From assembly GCA_018813805.1 (NCBI GenBank), contig JAHJAP010000090.1, forward strand, positions 1 through 21,568: DNA of 21,568 bases, written 5' to 3'. Shown piece by piece: positions 1 through 21,568 of this stretch. How positions within the stretch are numbered: position 1 is the first letter of the stretch; each line of letters opens with the position of its first letter. The notes under the pieces are model-generated. The model worked only from the letters and a program-made list of their open reading frames with translations, searched no databases and had not been told where the DNA came from. The stretch comes from Patescibacteria group bacterium (GTDB lineage: Bacteria > Patescibacteriota > Patescibacteriia > Patescibacteriales > GWC2-42-12). The position numbers were made by a program, and so were the translations under genes.

Positions 1-209
1 TAGCAATTAAATTATCCATGGTGTTTCTTGTTCGCATATAATTTATGGTAGTTATTAATTAAATAATCTTGCCACCATATTGTATGCGATCTAAAACCAA
101 AAGGTAACCCTAATTGCTGCAATTGTAACAAATATTGTCAAGATATTAAAAACATAATTATAATATTTCTTGATTTTATTGTTATTTTTGTTTAATTTTA
201 ATAATTTTT
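1..209. other. Non-coding stretch downstream of alaS
   Basis: No gene that I can support. The stretch is very AT-rich and follows the alaS stop codon on the minus strand. No clear hairpin-plus-T-run terminator is visible. On the plus strand, bases 67-195 are open after a stop and encode a short cysteine-rich string (NPNCCNCNKYC), but there is no start codon and no recognisable family. It may be the decayed end of a neighbouring gene lying outside the window. Confidence 0.4.
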
Positions 210-2003: not shown

Positions 2004-2018
2004 AAAAAAATGTAAAAT

Positions 2019-3191: not shown

Positions 3192-3211
3192 TTTGTTGAA
3201 TCTGTCATTAA

Positions 3212-3248
3212 GAGTCTGTCACCGAATACCGTATTCGGCAACAGACCC
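3212..3248. mobile_element. 37-bp palindromic mini-element, copy 1
   Basis: A near-perfect palindrome. The left arm starts GAGTCTGTCACCGAATACC and the right arm ends GGCAACAGACCC. It is flanked by a perfect 5-bp direct repeat ATTAA (3207-3211 and 3249-3253), as expected of a transposed element with a target duplication. The right-hand ATTAA contains the stop codon of the upstream gene (TTA at 3250-3252 on the plus strand), so the element went in exactly at that gene's stop and left it intact. As RNA it would form a strong hairpin right after the stop. Confidence 0.8.
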
Positions 3249-3249
3249 A

Positions 3250-4467
3250 TTAAATAGTTTTTTTCAATTGATATTTGTTGTCACTGAGTCGTTCAAATTT
3301 ATCTTTATTCATTAAAGCTAAATTAATAGTAGTTTTTTTAACCATTCTCTTACTTAAAACTCTATCAATTATTTCATTACGACTTAAAGCACTATTAACT
3401 TGCTCTAATATTTCTTGTATAACTTCAATCACAGTTCCTTTATTATACCCCCATTCTTTCAAGCCATATAAGCCACGGCCAACTAAAATATATTTATCAT
3501 CTACAATTAATTCATTATGAACAGTAGCAGCGTTAGCTTGTTTTTCATCAAAATTAATTTGATTTATTTTATTAGCTATTTCCGCAAAATGCATTGGCTT
3601 ATTTTGGTTTTTCAAAATAAGATAAATTTTATCATTAATTGTTTTAGGATTAATTTCACGCCAATTATCTATTCCCCAATAACCAAATTTATTTTGTTCA
3701 ATATTTTGAGCAACTCGAAAAATAGAATAAATAGCTTTATTAGTATTTATTAAATCTGCTTTTTCTGAAAATAAATCATTATTTAAAATAGAAACAATGT
3801 CTATATTGTTAAACATTTTAAATTTTTCTTCACAATTTTTGTAACTACTTAATTTTTTTGTCAAATTAATTAGCTCTTCAGTTGTTAATGTTTTTTTAAT
3901 TTCCTTAATTTTTTCCAATAATTCCTCAATTAAGGGCTCTAAATGTTCTAAAGATTGAAATTTTAATTTAAATAAATTTTTAAAATATTTTAAATTTTTC
4001 ATTTCTTCAAGCTCATCAGGCAATATTTTAGAAATCAAAAAATTAAAATGGCTGCGATGAACATTAGTAGCCTTATCTTGCGCTTTGTAAAAGCCCGTTG
4101 AAATACCAACCAAACTATCAATCATGTATTCTTTTTCCATTAAACCGCCATGTTCTTCTAATAATTGAACAATAACTTTCTTTAAACCACTAACATAATT
4201 ATTTAAATTTTCTAATTGTTTTAATTTTTTAATACTAAAAGTTTCTATTTGTCTAATACGCTCACGAGTTAATTGATGAACTTGACCTATTTCTTCTAAT
4301 GTTTCTTTATTTTTGCCATGCAAACCAAAGCGCCTGATTAATACATCGCGCTCTCTGTTGTTTAATTCATTGAATAAATCACTAATTAATTCAATAACAT
4401 CCAAGCGAGATATTTCTTCAGCTTGTTGATTAACGATTATTTGATCTAATATTGATTCACTGCTCAT
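3250..4467 (-). CDS. Sigma-70 region 4 / HARE-HTH protein
   Basis: Likely a transcription-associated DNA-binding protein, not a complete sigma factor. From the ATG at 4467, residues about 34-85 are a sigma-70 region 4 helix-turn-helix (NNRERDVLIRRFGL, TLEEIGQVHQLTRERIRQIE), which in sigma factors contacts the -35 box. Regions 2 and 3, needed to open promoters, are absent. The middle (about 90-270) is helical and charged and I do not recognise it. Residues about 275-341 match a HARE-HTH winged helix (KPMHFAEIANKIN, YILVGRGLYGLKEWG), as in the RNA polymerase delta subunit, and a second winged-helix-like segment ends the protein. An upstream TTG at 4524 would add 19 hydrophobic residues from duplicated and repeat-flanking DNA, so I reject it. 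This domain pairing is known in Patescibacteria; the role is inferred. Confidence 0.8.
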   Translation of the reverse strand: MSSESILDQIIVNQQAEEISRLDVIELISDLFNELNNRERDVLIRRFGLHGKNKETLEEIGQVHQLTRERIRQIETFSIKKLKQLENLNNYVSGLKKVIVQLLEEHGGLMEKEYMIDSLVGISTGFYKAQDKATNVHRSHFNFLISKILPDELEEMKNLKYFKNLFKLKFQSLEHLEPLIEELLEKIKEIKKTLTTEELINLTKKLSSYKNCEEKFKMFNNIDIVSILNNDLFSEKADLINTNKAIYSIFRVAQNIEQNKFGYWGIDNWREINPKTINDKIYLILKNQNKPMHFAEIANKINQINFDEKQANAATVHNELIVDDKYILVGRGLYGLKEWGYNKGTVIEVIQEILEQVNSALSRNEIIDRVLSKRMVKKTTINLALMNKDKFERLSDNKYQLKKTI

Positions 4468-4507
4468 AAATATAAAATTTAAAAAGAAGGTCAATAAAAA
4501 ATTGCCC

Positions 4508-4538
4508 AAAAACCTAAATAACAAATTTCCTTATAAAG
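4508..4538. repeat. Copy of the murB 3' end
   Basis: These 31 bases match 5105-5135, the last codons of murB, at 27 of 31 positions, in the same orientation; all four differences are transitions. Read on the minus strand it would encode LYKEICYLGF where murB has LCEEICYLGF, and the match stops at the murB stop codon. The two copies bracket the repeat/IS30/maf scar. Confidence 0.7.
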
Positions 4539-4652
4539 GACCTGTTGCCGAATACCGTATTCAGGGGACTGTCGCCGAATGCTCTTTCGGATAGAAATTT
4601 TCATAATTTCAAGGAAATTTTTTACTCGAATAGAATATTCAACGACAAATCC
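4538..4652. mobile_element. Composite 115-bp palindromic element
   Basis: Long member of the same palindromic family, flanked by perfect 5-bp direct repeats ATAAA (4533-4537 and 4653-4657). The left end, GGACCTGTTGCCGAATACC, is a diverged terminal repeat. At 4565 a second left end begins (GGGACTGTCGCCGAATGC), so one element seems to sit inside another. The right end, AATATTCAACGACAAATCC, pairs with the inner left arm over about 35 imperfect positions. The interior (GATAGAAATTTTCATAA) resembles the repeat fragment at 11119-11175. Confidence 0.65.
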
Positions 4653-4704
4653 ATAAAAACATAGGATTTGCTAAGTGTCAATAATATACTATATTTTTTT
4701 ATAT

Positions 4705-4750
4705 AAGTCAAGTACAATGCTGACAAGTTCAATGATCAAGTGCAACGCCT
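4705..4750 (+). mobile_element. Probable left end of an IS30-family element
   Basis: Three direct repeats of CAAGTNCAAYG begin at 4709, 4724 and 4737, just upstream of the IS30 transposase fragment. The string TTCAATGATCAAGTGCAACG resembles the known IS30 terminus, which contains TTCAATTGGTCAACGCAAC. This is the expected place and orientation for the 5' end of the element. The outer boundary cannot be fixed because the other end is missing. Confidence 0.45.
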
Positions 4751-4786
4751 GGCAAAAATTACCGATTTAGGGCATACTAATTGATT

Positions 4787-5053
4787 ATGAAAAAATCATA
4801 CACACAATTAAGCCTAGAAGAGCGAGAAAAGCTCCATTACATGATTTGGGATAAATTACCCATCAGGGAGATGGCAAGAAGGCTGAATCGAAACCCTTCG
4901 ACTATCAGCCGGAAGATTAAAACCAAAGAACCAATGGATAAGGCTGGTACTTTTGCTGTTCAAGGTATTGGGGCAGTCATTGTTAAAAAATTAGTGCGTT
5001 ATAAAGGGTCTGTCGCCAAATACCATATTCGGTATTCGGCGACAGACCCATAA
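4787..5053 (+). pseudogene. IS30 transposase 5' fragment joined to maf remnant
   Basis: An 88-residue open frame made of three unrelated pieces. Residues 1-45 are the N-terminal helix-turn-helix of an IS30-family transposase (YTQLSLEEREK, IREMARRLNRNPSTISRKIK); the catalytic DDE domain is absent. Residues about 46-69 (KEPMDKAGTFAVQGIGAVIV) match the conserved C-terminal motif of Maf/YhdE nucleotide pyrophosphatases, whose usual form is EPMDKAGAYxIQG. The remaining residues are read through a palindromic repeat (5006-5049). Neither gene is complete, so a functional product is unlikely. It is the only plus-strand reading frame on the bacterial side. maf often sits next to mreBC in bacteria, so the shred may be what is left of the original local maf gene. 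The start is ATG 4787; a TTG at 4781 is in frame. Confidence 0.7.
5006..5049. mobile_element. 44-bp palindromic mini-element, copy 3
   Basis: Left arm GGGTCTGTCGCCAAATACC, right arm GGTATTCGGCGACAGACCC, with 6 bases between the arms. It is flanked by perfect 5-bp repeats ATAAA (5001-5005, 5050-5054). It lies between the maf shred and the end of murB and truncates the maf reading frame. Confidence 0.8.
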
Positions 5054-5102
5054 AAAGTTCGGTTTATTATAACATTTCTAAATTGCCTTGACGAAGTTTA
5101 TT

Positions 5103-6047
5103 TTAAAAACCTAAGTAGCAAATTTCCTCACAAAGTTGAATATTGTATCTTTCTTTGGCTTGTTGTTTAATAAAATTAATTAAATCAATTATATTTTGAG
5201 ACTTAGCTTGCTCATTATTTAAAATAAAGCCAGCATGTTTTTCGCTAATTTTAGCAAAACCTATTTGCTTGCCTTTTAATCCCAATTTATCAATTATCCA
5301 ACTAGCTGCTATTTTGTTTGCTTTAACCGCGCCTGCTTCTTCAGCTTGTTGCGCTAAATTTTGATTAACAGATCTTATATATTCAATAGTTAAATTTTTA
5401 AAAATACTACCTGCGCTAAAACTTTTGGGTTGTGAATTATTTCTATAAGTTAAATACTGATTAGTTAATTTTTTAATCTCAATTAATTGGCCAGCAACTA
5501 AGACTAGGCAAACTTTAGTAATAATTAAATTATTTTTTTGTTTAAAAACAGATTCACGATAATCAAATTGACATTGTTGATTACTTAAAATAAAAACAGT
5601 ATTATTCTTCATGTCATAAACTTCAACATTTTTAACAATCATTGCCATGTTGCTACCAAAAGCCCCAGCATTACCATAAACACTTCCACCAATTGTTCCT
5701 GGAATGCCCGTTGCCCATTCCAAGCCAGTTAAATTATTACCAATTGCAGCTCTAACAGCTTGTGCTAAACTAACCCCCGCATCACAAATTAATTCATTAT
5801 TATCAACTATTAAATTCGCGTTAGATAATTTAATCACCAGACCATCTACGCCTAAATCATTAATTAAAACATTACTGCCACCACCCAAAATATTTATTTT
5901 TTCTTTTTTTATTTTTGCCCAATTAACAGCTTCTATTAAATCTTCAGTACTTTTTATTTCTATAAAAAATTTAGCAGGTCCGCCAATTTTAAAAGTTGTT
6001 AATGGTGCTAAAATTTTATTTTTAATTATTTTTTTTTCATTAAACAT
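5103..6047 (-). CDS. murB: UDP-N-acetylenolpyruvoylglucosamine reductase MurB
   Basis: Reduces UDP-GlcNAc-enolpyruvate to UDP-MurNAc with NADPH and bound FAD, an early cytoplasmic step of peptidoglycan synthesis. FAD-binding motifs are visible: GGGSNVLI at residues 55-62 and GIPGTIGGSVYGNAGAFG at about 114-131. The catalytic Arg (FDYRES, R164), the proton-donating Ser (SAGSIFKN, S214) and the C-terminal Glu (about 307-308) are all present. KLGLKGKQIGFAKISEKHAG is typical of the family. At 314 residues it is the shorter form common in Gram-positives, without the E. coli-type extra domain. The ATG at 6047 lies 3 bases after the mreC stop, so the two are translated from one message. Its last 31 bases are duplicated at 4508-4538. 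Confidence 0.95.
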   Translation of the reverse strand: MFNEKKIIKNKILAPLTTFKIGGPAKFFIEIKSTEDLIEAVNWAKIKKEKINILGGGSNVLINDLGVDGLVIKLSNANLIVDNNELICDAGVSLAQAVRAAIGNNLTGLEWATGIPGTIGGSVYGNAGAFGSNMAMIVKNVEVYDMKNNTVFILSNQQCQFDYRESVFKQKNNLIITKVCLVLVAGQLIEIKKLTNQYLTYRNNSQPKSFSAGSIFKNLTIEYIRSVNQNLAQQAEEAGAVKANKIAASWIIDKLGLKGKQIGFAKISEKHAGFILNNEQAKSQNIIDLINFIKQQAKERYNIQLCEEICYLGF

Positions 6048-6050
6048 AAT

Positions 6051-6881
6051 TTATGGTAATAAAACAGCGACAATTATTAAATCATCAAAATTAATTAATG
6101 GCTCTAAAATAGAACTTTGCCATAATTCGTTATTATTTTTAACAATATCAATTACTTTGCCAATAACTAGGCCTTGTGGAATATTTTGTTCTAAACCTGA
6201 AGTAACTACTATATCACCTTTATTTATTTTTTGCGTCTGTGGAATAAACTCCATTTTAACAGTTAAACCTAATTCACCGCTAACAATACCATTGATTTTT
6301 GTTTGACCCAACAATGAACCAGCCAATTTACAATTTTGATTATTTAGCAAACAAACTTCTGATAAATTATTTTTTACTGTAACAATTTTACCAATAATTA
6401 ATCCTTGATTTTCAGAACCATAAAAATCCGAACTAACCACTGGCAATCCAGGAAATAAGCCATCATCTGACCCTTTATCAATAATAATAATTTTATTCCC
6501 CTTAACTAAATCAATAGGTTCTCCGCGAGAAATTATATTAGCCATTGCATAATGATATTGACTTTTAATCAAAAATTTTAAATTTTGCCGTAAAGCTTGA
6601 TTTTCTTCTTCTAAAATTTTCAACTTAACATTATCAATTATTGATTTATTTAATTGATTTTCTAATTGTTTAATTCTGCTAGTTAAATCACTTTTATTAA
6701 TATGCTCATTATAAGTCAAACGCAAACCAGAGCTAAAAGAATAAAAATTTCTAAATAAAGGACTAAGCCAATAACTAATTGTTGACTCAAAAGGAGATAA
6801 AATTCCAATAAAATGAAAAAAAATAAGCAGTGCAACAACTGCTCCAACTATAATATGTTTTTTAACACTAAATTTTAGCAT
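6051..6881 (-). CDS. mreC: Rod-shape protein MreC
   Basis: Extracytoplasmic scaffold of the elongasome, linking MreB to wall synthesis. From the ATG at 6881 (276 residues) it has a short basic start, one membrane helix (about residues 8-27, IIVGAVVALLIFFHF), a coiled coil (SRIKQLENQL to EEENQALRQNL) and the paired beta-barrel domains (IISRGEPIDLVKGNKIIIID, GLFPGLPVV, GDIVVTSGLEQNIPQGLVIG). An in-frame ATG at 6938 would add 19 residues, but that extension is encoded by the palindromic element at 6900-6936 and is not MreC-like, so I use 6881. There is no strong ribosome-binding site for either start. mreD is not next to it. It is followed by murB after 3 bases. Confidence 0.9.
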   Translation of the reverse strand: MLKFSVKKHIIVGAVVALLIFFHFIGILSPFESTISYWLSPLFRNFYSFSSGLRLTYNEHINKSDLTSRIKQLENQLNKSIIDNVKLKILEEENQALRQNLKFLIKSQYHYAMANIISRGEPIDLVKGNKIIIIDKGSDDGLFPGLPVVSSDFYGSENQGLIIGKIVTVKNNLSEVCLLNNQNCKLAGSLLGQTKINGIVSGELGLTVKMEFIPQTQKINKGDIVVTSGLEQNIPQGLVIGKVIDIVKNNNELWQSSILEPLINFDDLIIVAVLLP

Positions 6882-6899
6882 ACATTTTAGATCTATTAC

Positions 6900-6936
6900 G
6901 GGTCTGTCGCCGAATACCGTATTCAACGACAGACCC
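6900..6936. mobile_element. 37-bp palindromic mini-element, copy 4
   Basis: Arms GGGTCTGTCGCCGAATACC and TTCAACGACAGACCC, flanked by perfect 5-bp repeats ATTAC (6895-6899, 6937-6941). It sits in the mreB-mreC gap and supplies a false upstream start codon for mreC. As RNA it would form a hairpin within the operon. Confidence 0.85.
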
Positions 6937-6961
6937 ATTACAGAATGCTCAAAATTTTTTA

Positions 6962-8005
6962 CTAATATTCTTCATTAGCTGATGAAATAACTTTTTTTAG
7001 CAACTCTGAATTAGCTAAAAGAACACCAGTACCTCTAACTACGCTAGTTAAAGGATCGTCAGCAACTCTAATTGGAATTTTGGTTGCCTGAGCTATTTCT
7101 AAATCCAGGCCACGCAACAATGCCACGCCACCTGTTAAAACAATTCCATACTCATAAATATCAGCAACTAATTCAGGCGGAGTTATTTCTAGAGTAATTT
7201 TAATATTCTCAATTATCTGACGAACAATTCTAGACATTGCTTCTCTAACATGCGCATCGGTTATTATTACTTCTCTTGGCAAGCCATTAATTAAATCTCT
7301 GCCACGAAGAGGCATTTCTAATGCTTCTTTCAAAAAAGCAGCTGAACCAATTTTTATTTTAATATTTTCCGCTACTTGTTCGCCAATTAAAATATTAAAC
7401 TCTTCTCTAACATACTGAATTATATCATTATCCAAGGCATTACCAGCTAATCGTAAAGTTTTCCATGTAACTACGCCTCCTAAAGAAATAACTGCAATTT
7501 CCGTAGTGCCACCTCCAATATCAACAATCATAGTAGCTTTTGGATCAGTTACAACAAATCGCGTTCCAATCGCAGCAGCCATAGATTGTTCAATTAAAAA
7601 TACTTCTCGAGCTCCAGCTGACTTAGTTGCATCTTTAACTGCTTTTTTTTCAACCTCAGTAATATCTAACGGAATGCCAATAACTATTCGCGGACGAGGA
7701 ATTAAAGTAAAATATTCCGAATGAACTTTGTCAATAAAATATTTTAACATTTTTTCAGTTACCTCAAAATCAGAAATTATCCCATCAACCAACGGTTTAA
7801 TAACTTGAATATGTCCAGGTGTTTTTCCAAGCATTTTTTTAGCCTCAGTTCCTATTGCTAGAATTTCATCAGTCCGCATATTTATTGCCACGACTGATGG
7901 TTCGTTAATAACAATTCCTTTTTCAGGAACATAAACCAATGTATTTGTAGTTCCTAAATCAATGCCTAAATCTTTACTAAATTTTCCTAAAAATTTATTA
8001 AACAT
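6962..8005 (-). CDS. mreB: Rod-shape actin homologue MreB
   Basis: Actin-like ATPase forming membrane-attached filaments that guide lateral wall synthesis. The actin-fold nucleotide motifs are present: phosphate-1 LGIDLGTTNTLVYV (about residues 13-26), phosphate-2 MIVDIGGGTTEIAVISLGGV and the adenosine loop GIVLTGGVALLRGL. IPRPRIVIGIP and the EQSMAAAIG helix are strongly conserved MreB segments. Length (347) is normal, and the N-terminal FNKFLGKFSKDL could serve as the membrane-binding segment. The ATG at 8005 is preceded by an 86-base gap after secF that probably holds its promoter. mreC follows after about 80 bases, with a palindromic element between. Confidence 0.97.
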   Translation of the reverse strand: MFNKFLGKFSKDLGIDLGTTNTLVYVPEKGIVINEPSVVAINMRTDEILAIGTEAKKMLGKTPGHIQVIKPLVDGIISDFEVTEKMLKYFIDKVHSEYFTLIPRPRIVIGIPLDITEVEKKAVKDATKSAGAREVFLIEQSMAAAIGTRFVVTDPKATMIVDIGGGTTEIAVISLGGVVTWKTLRLAGNALDNDIIQYVREEFNILIGEQVAENIKIKIGSAAFLKEALEMPLRGRDLINGLPREVIITDAHVREAMSRIVRQIIENIKITLEITPPELVADIYEYGIVLTGGVALLRGLDLEIAQATKIPIRVADDPLTSVVRGTGVLLANSELLKKVISSANEEY

Positions 8006-8052
8006 GACTTAAGTAGTTAAAAGTTAAAAGCTGTAATTTACCAAAAATTAAA

Positions 8053-8083
8053 AATTTAAGCTAAATATAGCATTTCCAACAAA
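8053..8083 (-). promoter_or_regulatory. Possible mreB promoter region
   Basis: On the minus strand this reads TGC-TATATT (the -10-like hexamer is at 8064-8069), an extended -10 form, 59 bases before the mreB start. No convincing -35 box is seen. A similar 30-base sequence, sharing AAATTTAAGC on the plus strand, lies upstream of secD at 11158-11187, so it may be a shared regulatory segment or another repeat fragment. Confidence 0.35.
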
Positions 8084-8091
8084 CTCTTATT

Positions 8092-9000
8092 TTACTTTTT
8101 CCATTTCTCCCAAACAACCAACATTGGTGAAGCTACAAAAATAGATGAATAAGTTCCGATAAATATACCAATGGCCAAAACCATGGCAAATGTTCTGATA
8201 GAAGAACCACCAAAAATAATAATTGATGCTAAAACCAATAATATTGTTAATGAGGTGTTAATAGAACGCACTAAAGTTTGATTTAAACTAACATTAACAG
8301 TCCCTTCAAAATCTTCATTGCTTTTAGGTAAATTTTCACGCAAACGATCAAATACCACAATAGTATCATGAACTGAATAGCCCAAAACAGTTAAAATCGC
8401 TGCCACAAATGAAGTATTAATTTCTATATTATAAAATTTACCCAAAACAGCGAAAACTCCTAAAACAATAATAGCATCATGAACCAAGGCGATTAAAGCG
8501 CTTATGCCATATTTCCATGAAGCAACTGGCTTAGAAACTTTTCTAAAAACATAAGTAATATAAAATAAAATTGCTAAAAGAACAAATATAATAGCATAAA
8601 CAGATCTTTTTTTAAGTTCAGCTCCAATAGATGGACCAATTGAATCAAAGCGTAATTCTTCAATAACTGCTTGCTTGTCATTAGACTGAACTAACTGATT
8701 TAATTTTATTAAAATTGCTTGATGTTTTTCTTCGCTAGTTTCTTGAAATTTAAAAATCATATCATTTTCACCAACTGGTTGAATAATCAAACTGCTCAAA
8801 TTCAAATCAGCTAAATTTTTTTCCAACTCGCTAACTATTAACCGAGTTTTAGAAAATCTAACTTCCAATAAACTACCGCCGGTAAAATCAATGCCATATT
8901 TAAAACCCCAAATAAACAGAGCTACTGCGGAAATAATAAATAAAATAGCAGAAATAGATAACCAAAACTTCCTTTGTTGAATTATTTTATAATTAGTCAT
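8092..9000 (-). CDS. secF: Protein translocase subunit SecF
   Basis: RND-type membrane protein that works with SecD and uses the proton motive force to help pull secreted proteins across the membrane after SecA-driven export. The first helix (about residues 12-33) is followed by the family motif GIDFTGGSLLEVRF. A periplasmic domain (about 40-130) follows, then IGPSIGAELKKRSVYAI and five more helices, with SVHDTIVVFDRLREN in the conserved fourth and NTSLTILLVL near the C-terminus. At 302 residues it is a complete SecF of normal length. The ATG at 9000 lies 24 bases after the secD stop, in the usual secD-secF order. Confidence 0.96.
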   Translation of the reverse strand: MTNYKIIQQRKFWLSISAILFIISAVALFIWGFKYGIDFTGGSLLEVRFSKTRLIVSELEKNLADLNLSSLIIQPVGENDMIFKFQETSEEKHQAILIKLNQLVQSNDKQAVIEELRFDSIGPSIGAELKKRSVYAIIFVLLAILFYITYVFRKVSKPVASWKYGISALIALVHDAIIVLGVFAVLGKFYNIEINTSFVAAILTVLGYSVHDTIVVFDRLRENLPKSNEDFEGTVNVSLNQTLVRSINTSLTILLVLASIIIFGGSSIRTFAMVLAIGIFIGTYSSIFVASPMLVVWEKWKK

Positions 9001-9024
9001 AATTTTTTTAATTGAAGTAATTAG

Positions 9025-11055
9025 CTAAGATTTTTTTTCTAACCATCTAGCGGGAATTAAATTTAAAAAATTTCTAGTAATAAAAATCGCTGTGAACATT
9101 GAAATTATTACACCCAAAGCTAATGTTATAGCAAATCCTCTAACTACACTCGTGGTAAATTGAATTAAAATAAAACAAGTTATTAGAGTTGAAATATTAC
9201 TATCACGAATTGATGTCCATGCTCGCCTAAAACCTTCTTCTATGGATCTAGTTAACGGCTTACCATTAATGGTCTCTTCTTTCATTCTAGAAAAAATTAA
9301 AATATTAGCGTCAACAGCCATGCCAATGGAAATAATAAAGCCAGCTATTCCAGATAAAGTTAAGGTTATTGAACACAACTTAAAAATTGCCAAAACTAAA
9401 ATACTATAAATAATTAAAGCAAAAACAGCCAACAAGCCTGGTAATCTATAAATAAATATCATAAATAAAGCAATAACAAAAAAACCAATGATTCCGGAAC
9501 GTAAGCTATCAGAAACTGATTGTTGTCCAAGACTTGGACCAATGGTTTGTTGACTAACCAAGCTAATTGGCACAGGCAAAGCGCCAGCGTTTAATCTTTG
9601 AGCCAATAATTTAGCCTCTTGAATATTAAATTTACCTGAAATAACAGCTTTACCACCGCTAATTTTTTCATTAACTGTTGGCATACTAATTGAATATCCA
9701 TCCAAATAAATAGCTACTGGTTTGCCAACATTGCGATTGGTAATATTTTCAAATATTTTAGCTCCTTCGTCATCAAATTCCATAGAAACTTCTGGTAAAT
9801 TACTATTAGAATCAAATTGAACAATTGTCTTCTTTAAATTTTTGCCAGTTAATTCAGTGTTTTGCCAATCACTTTGCTTGCCAACAATATCTTCTTTAGT
9901 TTTAATTTTAACTAAAATATGTCGAATTTTATATTCTTCAATATTTCTTTCGCTTTGTTTATATATTAAATGATAACCAAACTCTGTTTCAACAACATTA
10001 GAAATAGAACCTATTGCTTGGCTAAAAACAGTATCTTCAAAAGACTTGACCATTTGACCTCTTTTAAACCAACCCAAATCACCGCCAGTTTGACTAGCGC
10101 CTGGTTCAGTTGAATTTTGTTTAATTAAATCAATAAAATTTTTAATATTAGCTTGTTCTTTTAGTTTTTTAATTTTTTCATTGGCCTTTTCTTTTGTTAA
10201 ACCATTTTTACAATCAGCAACACCGTCAAAACAAATTAATAAGTGCGAAGCTTTAACTTCTTTTTCTTCTTTATTATTAAAAGAATCTTTTCTATTTCTC
10301 TTGTCTTCAAGTTTAATAATCTCATATCCAAAATCGCCAACAACTAAATCAGTGGTGGTTTTACCAACTAAAATTTTTCTAGATGCTTCAGCTAATTTGT
10401 AATTATTTTCAGAATTTATCCAGCCTAAATCACCATTATTATCTTTAGTTTTTTCATCTTCACTAAACTGTTTAGCTAAAGCGCCAAAATCACCACCAGA
10501 CATAACCTTACCCAACGCTTCTTCAGCTCGTTGTTCTGCTGATTTATTAAAATCATTAAGTTGTTTTGTTTCTTCCTTAGTCATCTGTCTTAACCCTGGA
10601 TTTTGCTCTTTAAATTCCAGCAAAGGCGTTTCACCAATCATTTTTATAGCTTCTTTAATATCCTTAACTCCAGCTAATTCTACTAAAACTCGAAAATCAC
10701 CATCTGCGGTTTTATTAACCTGAATATTGGGTTCGCTAACACCAAAAACATTAACTCGTCGCTCAATAACATCCCTAACACCCTCAACAGCAATATTACG
10801 ATCCTGTAATGGCACAGCAGCAACATTGGCTTGATAAATTAATTGAGTACCACCTATAAGATCCAGCCCTAATTTAAATAACACCTCCTTGACGTGTGGT
10901 AATGGTAATTGAAATTTATTAATTAATTTATTATAATATTGACCAAAATCAATTAAAGCCCCAAATAAAGTTAGAATTATAATAAAAATAAAGGTTTGCC
11001 AAATTTTACCTCGCTGGCTAGGATGAAGAATTTTTTGTAATACATTATCTGACAT
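9025..11055 (-). CDS. secD: SecD with inserted parvulin-type PPIase modules
   Basis: SecD of the SecDF export complex. From the ATG at 11055 (676 residues) it has an N-terminal helix (about 20-38), the start of the P1 domain (GLDLIGGTQLIYQ, GETPLLEFKE), then a large insert, and then normal SecD again (TGKNLKKTIVQF, AIYLDGYSISMPTV, LNAGALPVPI, TIGPSLGQQSV) with helices from about 515 and GMAVDANILIFSRMKEE. The insert (about residues 158-400) is parvulin-like. A complete module spans about 269-368 (ASHLLICF, TGGDLGWFKRGQMVKSFED, EFGYHLIY). A partial one spans about 170-251 (FGALAKQFSEDEK, NGDLGWIN, DFGYEIIKLED) and lacks its first strand. A lone first-strand motif (YKIRHILVKI) follows at about 375-385. 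It probably acts outside the membrane as a foldase or holdase on emerging chains; this is inference. A TTG at 11073 could add 6 residues. Confidence 0.93.
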   Translation of the reverse strand: MSDNVLQKILHPSQRGKIWQTFIFIIILTLFGALIDFGQYYNKLINKFQLPLPHVKEVLFKLGLDLIGGTQLIYQANVAAVPLQDRNIAVEGVRDVIERRVNVFGVSEPNIQVNKTADGDFRVLVELAGVKDIKEAIKMIGETPLLEFKEQNPGLRQMTKEETKQLNDFNKSAEQRAEEALGKVMSGGDFGALAKQFSEDEKTKDNNGDLGWINSENNYKLAEASRKILVGKTTTDLVVGDFGYEIIKLEDKRNRKDSFNNKEEKEVKASHLLICFDGVADCKNGLTKEKANEKIKKLKEQANIKNFIDLIKQNSTEPGASQTGGDLGWFKRGQMVKSFEDTVFSQAIGSISNVVETEFGYHLIYKQSERNIEEYKIRHILVKIKTKEDIVGKQSDWQNTELTGKNLKKTIVQFDSNSNLPEVSMEFDDEGAKIFENITNRNVGKPVAIYLDGYSISMPTVNEKISGGKAVISGKFNIQEAKLLAQRLNAGALPVPISLVSQQTIGPSLGQQSVSDSLRSGIIGFFVIALFMIFIYRLPGLLAVFALIIYSILVLAIFKLCSITLTLSGIAGFIISIGMAVDANILIFSRMKEETINGKPLTRSIEEGFRRAWTSIRDSNISTLITCFILIQFTTSVVRGFAITLALGVIISMFTAIFITRNFLNLIPARWLEKKS

Positions 11056-11118
11056 AAATATTGTTTTAAACAAAATTTAAATATTATACTATAAACCTAC
11101 TGTTAAATGCTGTTTTTA

Positions 11119-11175
11119 GGGTCTGTCACCGAATACTCTTTCGAGTATAAAATTTCTAAATTTAAGCGAAATATG
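11119..11175. repeat. Left part of long palindromic element
   Basis: GGGTCTGTCACCGAATACTC begins at 11119, and the interior that follows matches that of the composite element at 4565-4620. No right end or target duplication is found, so the copy is truncated. It lies upstream of secD in the 265-base gap between aspS and secD. Confidence 0.6.
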
Positions 11176-11301
11176 ACATTTAACACCATATTAATTAATT
11201 CCTATTTTTTTATTCTAAAGTAAAATTATATAAAAAGCAAATAAATATATAAGCCCAACACATTCTGAACGCCAAGTTATTTTTAATTAAATAATCCAAT
11301 A
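11176..11301. other. AT-rich spacer between aspS and secD
   Basis: Together with the flanking repeat fragments this fills the 11056-11320 gap. I see no open frame or RNA gene in it. The secD-secF promoter probably lies in the lower half of the gap, but no clear -35/-10 pair can be picked out. Confidence 0.4.
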
Positions 11302-11319
11302 GGGTCTGTCGACAAACCC
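11302..11319. repeat. Minimal palindrome of the same family
   Basis: GGGTCTGTCGACAAACCC, an 18-base near-perfect palindrome made only of the outer parts of the two terminal repeats. It ends one base from the aspS stop codon. No target duplication is seen, so it is probably a deletion remnant. It could act as a hairpin at the 3' end of aspS. Confidence 0.6.
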
Positions 11320-11320
11320 C

Positions 11321-13123
11321 TTATTTTATTATTTTTATATTTAATTCTTTTAATTGCTCTTCGCTAACTTCGCTTGGCGAATCCATCATAATATCACGTC
11401 CCTTGCCATCTTTTGGAAAAGCGTAAATATCTCGAATAGAATCCCAATCATTTAAAATCATTAATATTCTATCAATGCCAGGAGCGTTTCCTCCATGAGG
11501 CGGAGCGCCATATTCAAACGCATTAATCATTGCTTTAAATTTTTTATCAACTTCTTCTTTGGAATAGCCTGCTATTTCAAACGCTTTATACATAATTTTT
11601 AAATCATGATTTCTAATTGCCCCACTTGAAACTTCATAGCCGTTTAAAACTAAATCAAATTGATAAGCTAAAATATCTAAAGGATTTTTTTTATTTAATA
11701 CCTCCATGCCTCCTTGTGGCATTGAAAATGGATTATGTCCAAAATCAATTCTTTCTTCTTCTATTTCAGAATAAGCATACATTGGAAAATCAACAACCCA
11801 GCACCAAGCAGCCTTAGTATTATCTTTTAAACCAAGTTTTTCTGCTACAACATTTCTAATAGTTCCTAAAACTTGGCAAACAATATCCAATTTATCAGCT
11901 CCAAAAAATATTATATCCCCTGCCTTGGCTTTTACTTCTTTTAAAATCTTTTGAGCTAACTCATCTCCTAAAAATTTTATAATTGGACTAATTAATTTAT
12001 ATCCATTTACTTCTTGCTCAATTTTAATGTAAGCCAAGCCCTTAGCTCCTTTGCTTATAGCGATCTCTGTAAGTTCATCAATGTCTTTTCGGCTAAACTT
12101 AGCGCCATTATCAACTTTTAAGGCATGCACAACGCTATTATTTTTTAAATCTGCCATATCAGCAAAAACCTTAAATCCACAGCCTTTTACTAAATCTGTA
12201 ATCGGTGTTATTTCTAATTCAAAACGCAAATCAGGTTTATCTGTTCCATATTTATTCATTGAGTCTTTATAAGAAATTTTTTTAAATTTATTATTTTTAT
12301 CAAGATTAACTATTTTCTTTTTAGAAAACTCTTTAGTAAGTTCTAACATTAATGGTTCCATAATTTCAAAAATATCTTCTTGCTCCACAAAACTCATTTC
12401 CATATCAAGTTGATAAAATTCTCCATAATGACGATCTGTGCGCGAATCTTCATCACGAAAACATGGCGCAACTTGAAAATATTTATCAAGTCCGCCTACC
12501 ATTAATAACTGCTTAAACTGTTGTGGAGCTTGTGGTAAGGCATAAAATTTTCCTTGATGCAATCTTGATGGAATCAAAAAATCTCTAGCCCCTTCTGGAG
12601 ATGAATTAGCTAAAATTGGAGTTTGAATTTCAATAAAATCATTATTATGAAAATATTTTCTTATATAACGTATAAATTTATCTTTAGTTGCCAGCATTTC
12701 TTGAACTTTTTTTCTTCTTAAATCAATAAAACGATATTGCAAGCGAATTGCTTCGCCAGCTTCTTTGGCTTTTTCTTCATTAATCTCAAATGGTAAAGTT
12801 TTAGATTGAGATAAGATGTTTATTTCTGAACAATCAACTTCTATTTCACCAGTTTTTAATTTTGGATTAATCATGTCAGTTGGCCTAGCAATAACATTAC
12901 CTTTAATTTTAATAACCCACTCATTTCTTAATTTATTAGCTGTTTGCCATGAATCTTTGCTAATTTTTGGATCAAAGGTTAATTGTGTTAAGCCATAACG
13001 ATCGCGTAAATCAATAAAAATCACATTTCCATGATCACGACGACAATGAACCCAGCCAGCCAACTCAATGGTTTTGCCAACGTCTTCTTTCCTTAATTGA
13101 TTGCAAGTATGTGTTCTTAACAT
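11321..13123 (-). CDS. aspS: Aspartyl-tRNA synthetase, bacterial type
   Basis: Charges tRNA-Asp (possibly also tRNA-Asn in an organism using the indirect Asn route). The N-terminal OB fold recognises the anticodon (LAGWVHCRRDHGNVIFIDLR). Class II motif 2 is FRDEDSRTDRHYGEFYQLDM and motif 3 is GNAPGIDRILMIL. The roughly 110-residue GAD domain between motifs 2 and 3 marks the bacterial type. The C-terminus carries FPKDGKGRDIMMDSPSEV. Length (600 residues) is normal for bacterial AspRS. I use the ATG at 13123: it is preceded by GAGGGA at 6-base spacing and gives the family start MLRTHTCNQLR. Upstream GTG/ATG codons at 13153/13150 would add about 10 unrelated residues. It is the last gene on the bacterial side before the break. 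Confidence 0.96.
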   Translation of the reverse strand: MLRTHTCNQLRKEDVGKTIELAGWVHCRRDHGNVIFIDLRDRYGLTQLTFDPKISKDSWQTANKLRNEWVIKIKGNVIARPTDMINPKLKTGEIEVDCSEINILSQSKTLPFEINEEKAKEAGEAIRLQYRFIDLRRKKVQEMLATKDKFIRYIRKYFHNNDFIEIQTPILANSSPEGARDFLIPSRLHQGKFYALPQAPQQFKQLLMVGGLDKYFQVAPCFRDEDSRTDRHYGEFYQLDMEMSFVEQEDIFEIMEPLMLELTKEFSKKKIVNLDKNNKFKKISYKDSMNKYGTDKPDLRFELEITPITDLVKGCGFKVFADMADLKNNSVVHALKVDNGAKFSRKDIDELTEIAISKGAKGLAYIKIEQEVNGYKLISPIIKFLGDELAQKILKEVKAKAGDIIFFGADKLDIVCQVLGTIRNVVAEKLGLKDNTKAAWCWVVDFPMYAYSEIEEERIDFGHNPFSMPQGGMEVLNKKNPLDILAYQFDLVLNGYEVSSGAIRNHDLKIMYKAFEIAGYSKEEVDKKFKAMINAFEYGAPPHGGNAPGIDRILMILNDWDSIRDIYAFPKDGKGRDIMMDSPSEVSEEQLKELNIKIIK

Positions 13124-13218
13124 AATAATTCCCTCAATAACTGCACTCATCACAGCTTTTTATACTTTTCTAAATTTTTAACTAAAATTAGGTAGTGCTT
13201 CAGGATAATAAATATTAA
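13124..13218. other. Break between bacterial-type and archaeal-type DNA
   Basis: The genes to the left are bacterial (AspRS with GAD domain, SecDF, MreBC, MurB), and the gaps there carry the palindromic repeat family. To the right the genes are of archaeal character, no repeat copies are seen, and arginine codons shift to AGA (the left uses many CGT/CGC/CGA). The first about 12 bases right of the aspS start still hold its ribosome-binding site, so the join should lie between about 13,136 and 13,218. No mobile element, tRNA or attachment site is visible there. Confidence 0.6.
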
Positions 13219-14415
13219 TTACCAATTCTTTATTAATTTTTTAACAACTTCTTTTGTTTTTTCCATGCTTTTTATACTGACATATTCATTGTCTGCGTGC
13301 ATGTTTTCACCATGAGGACTGTATCCTATGCACGGAATTCCTTTATAGCTTAACAATCTCATATCAGTCCCCCCACTCAGCATAACTCCTTTGCCTTCTT
13401 TCTTGTACACTTTCTTAATGGCTTGCAAGAAATTGTCCTCTAAAGAATTCTTGTGTTTGCGTATAGCATCAAAAAAATCTAACACTTCAAAATCAATCTT
13501 TAATTCAGAATCTTTTCTCTTTGCGCGTTCAAAAACATCCAATATTTCTTTCTTCACTTCAATCATGTTTTCTTCAGGCAAGAAACGCCTATCAATGGTA
13601 AATGAAAAAAAATCAGGTATAGTATTGACTTTTCCGCAACCATTAACTTCTCCACCTAAAACCATTGAAGCTTTTTTCTCATTCTCTGATTGAACAGTAT
13701 AGCTAGAGATTCTTTTAACAATTTCTGACTTTAAACTATTAAGTTCAACAAGTAAGGCTATGGCTTTTTCAAAAGCATTAACACTTGGAAGAACATTATC
13801 ATAAGCTGCATGAGCTGATTTACCTCTAATGTTAACTCTTAAATGTAATGTTCCTTTGCCTGAATTCTGAAAGAAAGTGTTTGAAGGACCTTCACCAATT
13901 GCATAATCCGCCTTTACAAATTCTTTATCAACTATATATGAGAAACCTGCTTTTCCACCTGTTTCTTCATCAGGCACAAACGACAATTGCAAATTCACCT
14001 TTGGTTTGAAACCTTCTTCCTGTAATTCTTTTATTGCAAACAAGTAAACAACAAATTGACACTTAACGTCATATGCTCCTCTACCATAAGCTTTATCTCC
14101 TTTAATTACTAGTTTAAAAGGATCTGTTTTCCAATTCTTTGTAGGGGGAACAACATCATAATGAGCATTTAAATGAAGCCATTCCTTACTACCAGAATCC
14201 CATTCTGCCAATAAATTTATTCTTTCACTTCCTATGCTGCTAGACCATAAGTGTTTTGGCGGAACAACTCGTCTAGTTTTCAAACCTAAATCTATACACT
14301 TTGTTTCCAAAATATCAATTACTCTGTCATAATTATCTCCTGGAGGATTACTAGTGTCAATATTAACTAATAACTTAAGAAAAGATAACATTTCCTGCAA
14401 ATTAGAATTTTTCAT
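13219..14415 (-). CDS. M20-family metallopeptidase (ArgE/DapE-like)
   Basis: A zinc-dependent amidohydrolase/peptidase, cytoplasmic, acting on small peptides or N-acylated amino acids; the substrate cannot be read from sequence. Metal and catalytic residues are visible: HYD (H85, D87), GRGAYDVK with bridging D116, PDEETGG with E150 and E151, and a C-terminal GENMHADNEYV His. The lid or dimerisation domain lies in the middle (RGKSAHAAYDN). The residue after DVK is Cys where Gly is usual (DMKGG). Length (398) is normal. The ATG at 14415 lies 2 bases after the stop of the MBL-fold gene, so the pair is one transcript. Alternative names in this family are succinyl-diaminopimelate desuccinylase and acetylornithine deacetylase; without pathway neighbours I would not choose. 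Confidence 0.88.
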   Translation of the reverse strand: MKNSNLQEMLSFLKLLVNIDTSNPPGDNYDRVIDILETKCIDLGLKTRRVVPPKHLWSSSIGSERINLLAEWDSGSKEWLHLNAHYDVVPPTKNWKTDPFKLVIKGDKAYGRGAYDVKCQFVVYLFAIKELQEEGFKPKVNLQLSFVPDEETGGKAGFSYIVDKEFVKADYAIGEGPSNTFFQNSGKGTLHLRVNIRGKSAHAAYDNVLPSVNAFEKAIALLVELNSLKSEIVKRISSYTVQSENEKKASMVLGGEVNGCGKVNTIPDFFSFTIDRRFLPEENMIEVKKEILDVFERAKRKDSELKIDFEVLDFFDAIRKHKNSLEDNFLQAIKKVYKKEGKGVMLSGGTDMRLLSYKGIPCIGYSPHGENMHADNEYVSIKSMEKTKEVVKKLIKNW

Positions 14416-14417
14416 AG

Positions 14418-15044
14418 TTATATAATCTCCACATTACAATGTGCTCTCTGCTTGAAAGTCTCTGCATCACCATTAGTTCCAATAATAGAACCATAATGCA
14501 TAGGTATAGCTAATCGTGGATTTATCAACTTACAGGCCTCAGCTGCTTCCATAGAGGTCATAACGTAAGTTCCTGATACTGGTAGAAGAGCAACATCTAT
14601 ATTTTGCAATTCTTTCATCTCAGGAATCAAATCTGTGTCTCCTGCATGATAAATTCTTTTGCCATCAATTGTCAACACAAATCCAACCCATAGATTCTCT
14701 TTAGGATGAAAAGTTTTGTTAGTGTTATAAGCTGGAACAACCTCAAGCATTAATCCTAACAATTCTAATTTATCACCCGGTGCAACCAAAGTGACATTTT
14801 TAACTTTTAAACCTGAAAGTTTACTTTGACAATCAGGAACAGTAACTACAATAGTGTTTTCATCTGACAATTTCTCAATATCTCTTGGACTGCAATGATC
14901 AAAATGCTCATGAGTAATCAAAACCAAGTCTGCTTTGTCAGTTACTTCACTAACTTGATAAGGGTCAATGTATACAATCTTGCTGCCTTTTATCTTAAAA
15001 GATGAGTGACAATTTCTTTCAATAATTATTCCTTCATAATTCAT
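14418..15044 (-). CDS. Metallo-beta-lactamase-fold hydrolase, UlaG-like
   Basis: A metal-dependent hydrolase of the group often annotated as UlaG-like or 'Zn-dependent hydrolase of the beta-lactamase fold'. Ligands are clear: ITHEHFDH (H45, H47, D49, H50), then H133 and D136 in YHAGDTD, and H183 in PMHYGSI. Length is 208 residues. I use the ATG at 15044, which follows AGAGGTG at a 6-base gap; the GTG at 15053 is part of that ribosome-binding site. It is the first gene of a two-gene unit with the M20 peptidase. A TATA-like box lies at about 15079-15088. The substrate is unknown; small single-domain proteins of this type are common in archaea. Confidence 0.85.
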   Translation of the reverse strand: MNYEGIIIERNCHSSFKIKGSKIVYIDPYQVSEVTDKADLVLITHEHFDHCSPRDIEKLSDENTIVVTVPDCQSKLSGLKVKNVTLVAPGDKLELLGLMLEVVPAYNTNKTFHPKENLWVGFVLTIDGKRIYHAGDTDLIPEMKELQNIDVALLPVSGTYVMTSMEAAEACKLINPRLAIPMHYGSIIGTNGDAETFKQRAHCNVEII

Positions 15045-15078
15045 TATTAACACCTCTAAAGATTATAACTAACTTTGA

Positions 15079-15088
15079 ATTTATAAAA
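15079..15088 (-). promoter_or_regulatory. TATA-like box for the MBL-fold gene
   Basis: The minus strand reads TTTTATAAAT here, about 35-45 bases before the ATG at 15044. An archaeal start site about 25 bases downstream would give a short leader that includes the AGAGGTG ribosome-binding site. Confidence 0.45.
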
Positions 15089-15102
15089 TTTTTGTGAGTA
15101 TA

Positions 15103-15190: not shown

Positions 15191-15214
15191 GTATCTTAAA
15201 AAATAATCAAAACA

Positions 15215-15223
15215 TTTATATAT
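15215..15223 (+). promoter_or_regulatory. Archaeal TATA box, membrane gene cluster
   Basis: TTTATATAT centred about 30 bases before the ATG at 15249. Transcription from the usual 25-27 bases downstream would start at the ATG or just before it, giving a leaderless message; there is no ribosome-binding site before the ATG, which agrees. Confidence 0.55.
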
Positions 15224-18251: not shown

Positions 18252-20534
18252 ATGAATAATGATGTGTTTTCTTATGAAACACTAAAACAAGGAGAAGATA
18301 ACGTTCTGAAAATAAACTGTGACAAGATAACTAGAGCACCATCTATAGAGGATGATGAACTATACATGTCTAAAACTGTAGAATTTCTAATTGAAAATCC
18401 TGGAACTACAAAAATAGTTTTTTCTCAAAAAAGAGATTATGAATATGATTATGCTCAGACAGTTATACTTACAGAAATAGCACATTTATACAATGAATTG
18501 TTGAAAAATAAAGACTTATTCAGCCATGAATCCTTTAGAAACTACGACGAAGGAGGAATGCAAGATACAAAGTTTAATGAGATTAGAAACACAATCTTCA
18601 ACATGTTGAAACAGGACCCTATGGGTTGTTACGTTACTCTCAAAAGAATTCATCGCAGAGAAAACATTTTTTTGGATAAAAGCAAAGACAAAAAAAGCTT
18701 GTCTGCTCATAAAAAATATATTCAACTATTAGAATATCTTATAAGCTTGCTGGAAAACACTAAACTCATAGCTGTTCTAAGACCATTCTCTGCAGGCCAC
18801 AAAGTAGGCTCCAGAGACATCTATAGGAAAGTGTTCAACCCAACAATAAAGCCTGATTTTATGTTTACAAAATTAATGGCTACATTCCCTAAAGATGCTG
18901 TTGAAATAGATAATTATGATGTTAAAGATTCTGAAGTTGTTATATTTGAACTAAGTGATAATATACAATACTTATATCATGTTACCCCACCAGAGTTCAA
19001 ACTTGATGAGGACAAGTATGAATTATTGGATTTGGCCAGAAATATCATGGCAGAACACAAGCCTGAAAAACAAGATTTTGTGAATCCACAAAGAATGAGA
19101 GAAGTCTTTTACAATGTAGGTCATGATTTAATAGAAGAATTGGCAAACTATAGAAATATTAAACTTTCCAAAAAAGAAGTTAACGAACTAACTCAAATAC
19201 TTATAAGGTACACAGTAGGTTTTGGATTGATAGAAGTCTTACTTGAGGATCCTAAAATACAAGACATAACCGTTAACAGTCCTATGGGTCAAATACCAAT
19301 ATTTATTGTTCATCAAGATTATGGCGAGTGCAAAACAAATATTCTTCCATCCATTGATGATGGAGAATCATGGGCTTCTAAATTAAGATTAATATCAGGA
19401 AGACCTTTAGATGAAGCAAACCCTATTCTTGATACTGAAATAGAGATTCCTCTAATTGCAAATTCTAGAGTTGGAGTGATTGCACCTCCATTAAATCCAA
19501 CAGGTATAGCTTATGCCTTTAGAAGACACAGAGACAAACCATGGACAATACCTCTTTTTATGAAGAACAATATGTTAACCCCACTTGCAGCAGGATTATT
19601 AAGTTTTATTATTGACGGCAGCAGAACCATGCTTATAGCTGGAACAAGAAGTGCTGGAAAAACATCATTACTAGGATCATTAATGGTTGAAATTATGAGA
19701 AAATATAGAATTATAACTATTGAAGATACTTTAGAGTTGCCAACATCTTCTCTGAGAAGATTAGGTTACAATATTCAATCAATGAAAGTTGCATCTGCGC
19801 TTTCAAAGGGAAGTTCTGAAGTTCCTGCTAGCGAAGGTATTAGAACAACACTGAGACTTGGAGATTCAAGCTTGATTGTTGGAGAGGTCAGGAGTTCTGA
19901 AGCCAAAGCACTCTATGAAGCTATGAGAGTCGGTGCGTTGGCAAATGTTGTTGCAGGAACAATACATGGTGACAGCCCTTACGGAGTGTTTGACAGAGTG
20001 GTTAATGACTTGGATGTGCCAAGAACAAGTTTTAAAGCTACAGACATAATTGTTGTTGCCAATCCTATAAAGAGTGCTGACGGACTTCATAGATGGAGAA
20101 GGATTACACAAATAACAGAGGTCAGAAAACACTGGGAGGATGATCCTTTAAGAGAAGGCGGTTTTGTTGACCTTATGAAGTACAATTCAAAAACTGATCA
20201 ATTAGAACCAACTGATGAATTAATAAATGGAGAATCAGAAATCTTAAAGTCTATAGCTGGAAATGTTAAGGAGTGGGCTAGCAACTGGGATGCTGTATGG
20301 GATAATATTCTACTAAGAGCAGATATGAAGGAGAACTTGCTGAAAACTGTTGAAAAAAATAAAAATTATGATTTGTTAGAAGCTCCATTTGTTATTAGGT
20401 GTAATGATGAATTTCATAGAATTAGTTATCGTGTTAAAGATAAAACTGGTGAGCTTGATTCTAAAAGAATACTGTTTGAGTGGAACGAGTGGTTAAAGAA
20501 AGAGGTTCGTAAAAATAGCTCAAAAAATGGATGA
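18252..20534 (+). CDS. Archaellum/type-IV-filament secretion ATPase (FlaI/TadA-like)
   Basis: Hexameric ATPase of the VirB11/GspE/FlaI superfamily that powers assembly or rotation of a type IV filament-like machine from the cytoplasmic side of the membrane. The ATPase core is complete: Walker A GTRSAGKTS (G464-S472, K470), Asp-box-like ITIEDTLELP, Walker B LIVGEVRS (E545) and His box GTIHGDS (H572), then VPRTSFKATDIIVVANPI. An N-terminal subdomain with LLEDPKIQDITVNSP precedes it. At 760 residues it is longer than FlaI (about 550); residues 1 to about 280 are charged and I do not recognise them beyond a FlaI/TadA-like arrangement. The C-terminal about 120 residues after the core (EVRKHWEDDPLREGG onward) are helical. 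The ATG at 18252 follows GAGGTGA. Its stop overlaps the next gene's start by 8 bases, so the ATPase and platform protein are made together. Confidence 0.9.
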   Translation: MNNDVFSYETLKQGEDNVLKINCDKITRAPSIEDDELYMSKTVEFLIENPGTTKIVFSQKRDYEYDYAQTVILTEIAHLYNELLKNKDLFSHESFRNYDEGGMQDTKFNEIRNTIFNMLKQDPMGCYVTLKRIHRRENIFLDKSKDKKSLSAHKKYIQLLEYLISLLENTKLIAVLRPFSAGHKVGSRDIYRKVFNPTIKPDFMFTKLMATFPKDAVEIDNYDVKDSEVVIFELSDNIQYLYHVTPPEFKLDEDKYELLDLARNIMAEHKPEKQDFVNPQRMREVFYNVGHDLIEELANYRNIKLSKKEVNELTQILIRYTVGFGLIEVLLEDPKIQDITVNSPMGQIPIFIVHQDYGECKTNILPSIDDGESWASKLRLISGRPLDEANPILDTEIEIPLIANSRVGVIAPPLNPTGIAYAFRRHRDKPWTIPLFMKNNMLTPLAAGLLSFIIDGSRTMLIAGTRSAGKTSLLGSLMVEIMRKYRIITIEDTLELPTSSLRRLGYNIQSMKVASALSKGSSEVPASEGIRTTLRLGDSSLIVGEVRSSEAKALYEAMRVGALANVVAGTIHGDSPYGVFDRVVNDLDVPRTSFKATDIIVVANPIKSADGLHRWRRITQITEVRKHWEDDPLREGGFVDLMKYNSKTDQLEPTDELINGESEILKSIAGNVKEWASNWDAVWDNILLRADMKENLLKTVEKNKNYDLLEAPFVIRCNDEFHRISYRVKDKTGELDSKRILFEWNEWLKKEVRKNSSKNG

Positions 20535-21568
20535 CAAAGGCGTTGACAACATAAAAAAAAAGTATCAGACTAAGATTAATTCTGAGCTTAAACAAGAACA
20601 TAATATTTTAGAACCAATCACTTCTAATGATTACAACAGTTTTAAAAAAGAGTATCTTCCAAAACACTTATCTTTTTATGAAAAAGCTTGTAATTTTTCA
20701 GAAAAAATTTTCAACATAAAAGCTGATAAACCTAAAATTCCCCAATATCAAGAAGCTATTGATATTTGTCATTTAAACATAAGTCCTACAGGAGCAGCTA
20801 GTTTTCCTATAGCAGTATTCATGTTTTTTCTGCTTCTAGGATTATTTATGGGTGTGATAATTCCTTACTTATTCGGTGGAGACATCAGTTATTTTATGAT
20901 AGTTATGGCTTTATTAGCAGGTGTAATATTGATGATGCCCCTTGGAAACCTGCCTTTTTTCTTTGCTGATAACTGGCGTATGAAAGCCAGCAACCAAATG
21001 GTTTTATGCATTTTTTACATAGTAACTTATATGAGGCACACGTCCAATTTTGAACTAGGAATAGATTTTGCTGCTGAACATTTATCTCCTCCGCTTTCAA
21101 TTGATTTGAAGAAAATTGTTTGGAATATTGAAAGTGGAAAGTATCATTCTATAAAAGAATCAATGGATGATTACTTAGAAAGTTGGAGAAAATGGAATTT
21201 AGAATTCATAGAAAGTGTTCATTTAATCGAGTCTTCTCTTTATGAATCTTCTGAGGACAGAAGGATAAATGCATTAGACAAGTCTCTTAGTGTAATGTTA
21301 GAAGAAACTTATGAGAAAATGCTTCACTACGCACAAAATCTGCAGTCACCTCTAACAACCTTGAATATGCTTGGAATAATGCTTCCAATTTTAGGCTTGG
21401 TAATACTTCCATTAGTTGTTAGCTTTATGCCAGAAGTTAAATGGTATCACCTATTCACTTTATATAACATAATCATACCTTCGGCAGTTTATTATCTTGG
21501 AAAAACAATTCTTTCAAAGAGACCTACTGGTTATGGCAACACAGATATTTCTGAAACTAATAAAGATA
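20527..21568 (+). CDS. FlaJ/TadC-like platform membrane protein (partial)
   Basis: Membrane partner of the filament ATPase (T2SSF / GspF superfamily). It is open to the window edge, 347 codons visible, 3' end missing. The start is ATG 20527, inside the last codons of the ATPase gene; another ATG at 20531 hits a stop after 7 codons. About 95 soluble residues come first, then a pair of helices (AASFPIAVFMFFLLLGLFMG and MIVMALLAGVILMMPLG), a cytoplasmic helical domain with F-domain-like features (MRHTSNFELGIDFAAEHLSP, IVWNIESGKYHSIKESMDDY), and a further helix pair near the end (LGIMLPILGLVILPLVVSF, LYNIIIPSAVYYLG). FlaJ and TadC proteins have this layout. As in archaellum operons, it directly follows the ATPase. 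Confidence 0.87.
   Translation, partial: MDDKGVDNIKKKYQTKINSELKQEHNILEPITSNDYNSFKKEYLPKHLSFYEKACNFSEKIFNIKADKPKIPQYQEAIDICHLNISPTGAASFPIAVFMFFLLLGLFMGVIIPYLFGGDISYFMIVMALLAGVILMMPLGNLPFFFADNWRMKASNQMVLCIFYIVTYMRHTSNFELGIDFAAEHLSPPLSIDLKKIVWNIESGKYHSIKESMDDYLESWRKWNLEFIESVHLIESSLYESSEDRRINALDKSLSVMLEETYEKMLHYAQNLQSPLTTLNMLGIMLPILGLVILPLVVSFMPEVKWYHLFTLYNIIIPSAVYYLGKTILSKRPTGYGNTDISETNKD

Follow-up and report, generated by a model that had tools for sequence, protein, structure and literature searches.

The window, which is the entire contig C39 of 21,568 bases, very probably represents an assembly chimera, in which a segment from a Patescibacteria (CPR) bacterium (bases 1 to ~13,123) is joined to a segment from a member of the Woesearchaeota (~13,219 to 21,568) of the same dataset. 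C39 belongs to a CPR bin that comprises 121 contigs and 688,760 bases and that is estimated from marker genes to be 93.4% complete with 0.92% contamination. Genes of two lineages lie on this one contig and meet at a single sharp boundary, and the misassembly of a CPR bacterium with a DPANN archaeon, which the initial annotation had preferred, is the best supported explanation. Approximately 8.3 kb of archaeal-type DNA is contained in the longest contig of a bin that marker genes rate as good, and a naive reading of C39 would lead to an inter-domain transfer and to an archaeal secretion-type system in Patescibacteria. Neither tRNA genes nor RNA families were found in the window.

Two gene sets of different composition on one contig

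The left segment (1..13123) contains alaS, mnmA, a sigma4/HARE gene, murB, mreC, mreB, secF, secD and aspS, whose products are assigned by Pfam to AlaRS, MnmA, a sigma-70 region 4/HARE protein, MurB, MreC, MreB, SecF, SecD and AspRS, respectively. Its CPR relatives, its codon and Markov scores and a palindromic repeat likewise place this segment in CPR. The separation of a bacterial gene set on the left from a different set on the right, described at the outset, holds for nine genes on each side by Pfam and by composition. Specifically, in a per-codon score trained on 420 ORFs from the bin's other contigs against 78 ORFs from loci L032-L036, in which positive values are CPR-like and negative values woesearchaeal, the nine left genes range from +0.11 to +0.19 and the nine right genes from -0.002 to -0.194. 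The two right-side genes nearest the boundary, which encode an M20 peptidase and a metallo-beta-lactamase-fold hydrolase (MBL), score -0.002 and -0.018; both values lie within the overlap of the two distributions (5th and 1st percentiles of bin genes, -0.014 and -0.077; 95th percentile of woesearchaeal genes, +0.006) and are not decisive alone. The right side had also been called rich in AGA arginine codons, and the counts bear this out, with AGA and AGG making up 84/95 arginine codons on the right versus 68/137 on the left (Fisher p = 3e-10).

A Markov score is positive in all 26 windows of 500 bases before 13,000 and negative in all 16 from 13,000 on. The score reflects the nearest relatives in particular, as values for other woesearchaeal loci (L037-L059) range from -0.05 to +0.04 (5th to 95th percentile). 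The composition change point, located from the cumulative score under three model orders, falls at 13,236-13,312, slightly to the right of the gap that separates the aspS start from the M20 stop (13124..13218). This gap itself has a mildly CPR-like Markov score of +0.018, although the MBL-TM1 gap, which is on the archaeal side, scores +0.023. The position of the change point and the mildly CPR-like gap both count against the assembly chimera.

A palindromic repeat of ~36 bases forms 119 clusters over the 617,815 readable bases of the bin, and its copies in the window lie in several left-side gaps (3206-3252, 4532-4563, 5000-5046, 6894-6940 and 11114-11159); the same pattern read backwards gave zero occurrences. 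The initial annotation had stressed that no repeat copies occur to the right of the gap. The count of zero stands, but it is weak evidence alone, with ~1.6 copies expected and P(0) ~0.20, and the absence of the repeat was rejected as proof of a chimera on this ground. An ORF of 90 aa at 4781-5053, which has copies of the palindrome on either side, encodes an HTH_38 domain and a Maf-like fragment that scores below the Pfam cut-off, and its sole match elsewhere in the readable bin comprises 24 residues on C7.

The last CPR gene is a bacterial-type aspS

The last CPR gene before the junction is aspS (11321..13153, minus strand), which encodes a bacterial-type aspartyl-tRNA synthetase and likely starts at 13,123, corresponding to methionine 11 of the listed ORF. 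AspRS scores 670 bits against the bacterial equivalog TIGR00459 (cut-off 374), contains the GAD domain (PF02938) and is a member of that family. Its identity is 69-75% in 11 of the 12 same-family genomes, the twelfth (G011) having a 52-residue piece only, and its best named database relatives include Patescibacteria and Falkowbacteria (74%), which assigns the left side to Patescibacteria. When AspRS was divided into 30-residue segments and compared with its counterparts, 29 from CPR and 21 from Woesearchaeota, the best CPR identity exceeded the best woesearchaeal identity in 19/20 segments, and the two were level at residues 271-300 (0.67 vs 0.68; medians 0.58 and 0.48). A junction within aspS was considered and is not supported: no segment is clearly woesearchaeal, and no change of origin is seen in the gene.

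SecD is present in 40/41 genomes, the window's own included. Because the best secD and the best aspS matches share a contig in 0/40 relatives, the secD-aspS adjacency in C39 is not conserved, and another join in the CPR DNA itself is conceivable. The flanks of aspS from 29 CPR relatives, several of them shortened by contig ends and one (G018) mis-cut such that it matched aspS itself, were searched against the bin. The upstream neighbour was found for G006 and G001 only, on C34; the downstream neighbour of G006 also matches C34 (237-584 and 893-1102), and the downstream flanks of G002, G007, G031 and G027 match C71. The genes that flank aspS in G006 lie close together at C34:237-1102 of G000 (L215), with no aspS between them. 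The position of aspS in the bin therefore differs from that in the relatives, and the missing-neighbour test gave no true continuation.

The right segment matches a conserved woesearchaeal gene cluster

From 14,418 to its end, the contig carries a gene cluster that is also found in Woesearchaeota. MBL (14418..15053, minus strand; Pfam PF13483) is 76% identical to its counterpart at the same position in the woesearchaeal locus L032. It is followed by three membrane-type proteins on the plus strand, TM1 (15249-15809), TM2 (15812-16429) and TM3 (16437-17021), which are 82%, 79% and 67% identical in L032, and by two coiled-coil-type proteins on the minus strand (17024-17704 and 17759-18163; 68% and 76% identical), whose order and strand are the same there. 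The membrane and coiled-coil proteins have no Pfam match above cut-off, and their labels come from reading of the sequences. The cluster continues on the plus strand with a FlaI-like type II/IV secretion (T2SSE) ATPase (18252..20534; Pfam PF00437), which shares 87% identity with a Woesearchaeota protein, and with a FlaJ-like partner (20527..21567; 81% identical in L032), whose frame is open at the contig end.

Overall, the succession from MBL to the FlaJ-like partner agrees with L032 in order and strand at 67-87% protein identity. The same order and strand are kept in L033, L034 and L036 and also in L035, but there the MBL is unmatched. At the DNA level, two blocks that together run from MBL through the contig end match the L032 genome at 75% identity. 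This is the best value among 194 woesearchaeal genomes, in which the source archaeon was not found. The cluster of MBL, three membrane-type proteins, two coiled-coil-type proteins, FlaI-like ATPase and FlaJ-like partner is conserved over loci L032-L111, often with aspS upstream. Unlike the woesearchaeal cluster, C39 has the M20 gene between MBL and aspS, and its aspS is the CPR one.

Of the names proposed for this region, FlaI-like is correct insofar as the protein is a T2SSE ATPase (44.9 bits against PF00437, gathering cut-off 24.9). The archaellum motor ATPase FlaI (NF058587) is its best NCBIfam match, but at 125 bits against an equivalog cut-off of 550, which does not make it an archaellum FlaI. 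Similarly, the proposed FlaJ-like partner and FlaC-like coils are proteins with woesearchaeal counterparts, but they match no NCBIfam family. A scan of genome contigs recovered 157 relatives of the ATPase, and the titles of the best 80, which were kept, read archaeon in 79 cases and Aminicenantes bacterium in one. Among CPR genomes, 34/98 have a match at E <= 0.001, and these, besides the window's own full-length match, cover part of the protein at 25-39% identity; a close homologue was found in none of the 97 closest other CPR genomes, and a match at E <= 1e-20 in none of 191 other genomes of the phylum (1/192 is the window's own). ATPases of the woesearchaeal type also occur in records labelled Aminicenantes (L077), Methanosarcinales (L102) and Bacteroidota (P0014, 84% identical), which are possibly mis-binned contigs. 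As labelled, the Bacteroidota and Aminicenantes records count against the assembly chimera.

The M20 peptidase and the placement of the junction

The first gene to the right of the junction encodes an M20 (ArgE/DapE-like) peptidase (13219..14415, minus strand; Pfam PF01546; TIGR01910, 271 bits vs 218). No close homologue was found in 40 CPR genomes (best 32%) or in 20 woesearchaeal genomes (32% at the best E-value), and counting the window's own genome, 2/41 CPR genomes have a match, the other one at 32%. The lack of a close woesearchaeal homologue is a point against the main explanation. It also favours a variant that is compatible with it, in which the right side is itself composite, with M20 derived from a third organism and woesearchaeal DNA beginning at MBL. 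In line with this variant, Omnitrophota, at 40-47%, account for most of the named relatives of M20 among the best 120 of 476 proteins, and Planctomycetota/Phycisphaeraceae for two; among the matches listed, DNA matches to Woesearchaeota start at the MBL stop; and the codon score of M20 is neutral. On the other hand, M20 starts on the strand of MBL, two bases past the stop of the latter, and its Markov score of -0.031 is woesearchaeal-like. We consider a third source for M20 unlikely on balance.

The placement of the junction interval at 13124..13218 in the initial annotation is confirmed by two database proteins that bracket it. On the left, P0241 (600 aa) is exactly the window's AspRS from methionine 11 and is encoded on a 72,246-base contig outside the bin, which we infer to belong to another assembly of the same organism; because this contig has AspRS from the methionine, CPR DNA extends leftward from ~13,123. 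On the right, P0122 combines a KefB-like N-terminus with 221 residues that match the C-terminus of the window's M20 exactly, and because it includes this C-terminus through the last residue, the right-side DNA presumably reaches the M20 stop at 13,219. Judged from its sequence, P0122 is the same M20 DNA joined to a different partner, and it may itself be an assembly product.

For the ATPase, P0020 is identical from residue 140 and comes from a 2,900-base contig, whose length equals that of positions 18,669-21,568 of the window. P0122 and P0020 have one member sequence each, so no full-length copy is concealed in their clusters. An exact full-length M20 was absent among the best 120 of 476 proteins, which are headed by P0121 (59%) and P0122, and an exact full-length ATPase was absent among the best 120 of 6323. 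If M20 and the ATPase followed on the 72-kb contig, full-length copies identical to those of the window would be expected at the top of these lists, which is not the case; this contig might end beside aspS. The full-length M20 and ATPase that C39 encodes are likewise missing from the protein database, which therefore covers the dataset only in part.

A shared word at the aspS start as a candidate point of joining

In Woesearchaeota, aspS is often a neighbour of the cluster. Among 80 woesearchaeal loci, 54 have TM1, and aspS lies upstream of the cluster within 7 kb and in the orientation of the window in 21/54 of these, which corresponds to 21/37 of those with a flank of at least 5 kb. Altogether, aspS was found in 22/37 flanked loci, being displaced in one (L105), and was not found in 15/37. 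The aspS start is 40 bases from the MBL end in L033, and in L032 other genes intervene between aspS and TM1, which are 3.4 kb apart. Because of this frequent upstream location, the CPR aspS in C39 may occupy the position of the archaeon's own aspS, a circumstance that lay beyond the reach of the initial annotation.

The first 21 bases of aspS (13103..13123, minus strand) are the proposed shared word. They occur exactly in 1/194 woesearchaeal genomes (G131), at an aspS start and on a contig that also has an ATPase match. Additionally, the CPR locus L135 contains a 24-base copy that spans the aspS start, and the longest match to the aspS start among the 80 woesearchaeal loci is 15 bases (L032). 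A short word of this kind could plausibly have acted as assembly glue. Among the contigs of the bin, five pairs share an overlap of exactly 141 bases, in agreement with a de Bruijn assembler whose final k is 141; one further pair overlaps by 98 bases and three by 21-28. MEGAHIT runs from a k of 21 to a final k of 141. We propose that such an assembler would have left the archaeal sequence and entered the CPR aspS via a short word that is identical in both at the conserved aspS start, at a point where archaeal coverage may have been low. In a benchmark (PMC11261854), chimeric contigs per genome numbered 22.15 for megahit versus 2.63 for SPAdes. Several observations count against this account, namely that aspS was not found in 15 of the flanked loci, that in L032 aspS does not directly adjoin the cluster, that a single woesearchaeal genome contains the 21-base word, and that the bin overlaps are not all of 141 bases.

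The GUNC paper (PMC8201837) describes a similar contig-level chimerism, with genes of distant lineages on one contig and a bin that passes marker-gene checks, and names misassembly as the source of chimeric contigs. Its authors regard misassemblies as rare relative to mis-binning, which weighs against the assembly chimera, and, unlike the chimerism described there, the join in C39 is located at a gene with orthologues in both sources. Owing to this location, the gene order on the archaeal side looks natural, which makes an error of such kind harder to spot.

A chimera made physically, during amplification or library preparation rather than by the assembler, is improbable. The in-frame fusion of the same M20 to a KefB-like protein on another contig is what chimeric template molecules could give, but this fusion is possibly an assembly product itself, there is no direct evidence of amplification, and the location of the junction, where each source has an orthologue of the gene, fits joining through a shared word. 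A real inter-domain transfer, in which at least 8.3 kb of archaeal DNA would have entered the CPR bacterium, perhaps by homologous exchange through the conserved aspS start, is scarcely credible. Homologous recombination could likewise give a join at aspS, which in Woesearchaeota is often found beside the cluster and in the orientation seen here, and the junction sequence contains no N. However, a close homologue of the ATPase was found in none of the 97 close CPR relatives and a match at E <= 1e-20 in none of the 191 other genomes of the phylum, the right side retains woesearchaeal codon usage and is 75% identical in DNA to the L032 genome, and AspRS recurs on the 72-kb contig with exact full-length M20 and ATPase absent among the best 120 matches of each.

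Other contigs of the bin

When 1180 ORFs from the 80 woesearchaeal loci, all of them genes near the ATPase, were searched against the bin, with 29 contigs shorter than 3 kb masked and left out, the only other contigs matched at >=50% were C21 and C25. The gene on C25 matches no NCBIfam name and presumably resembles an antirepressor. Independently of these matches, three contigs, C23 (L204), C4 (L185) and C55 (L235), have codon scores as low as that of the right-side M20 or lower, unlike the rest of the bin. No RNA families were found in C23, which has a GC of 0.50; C4 carries glyS, and C55 encodes two radical SAM proteins.
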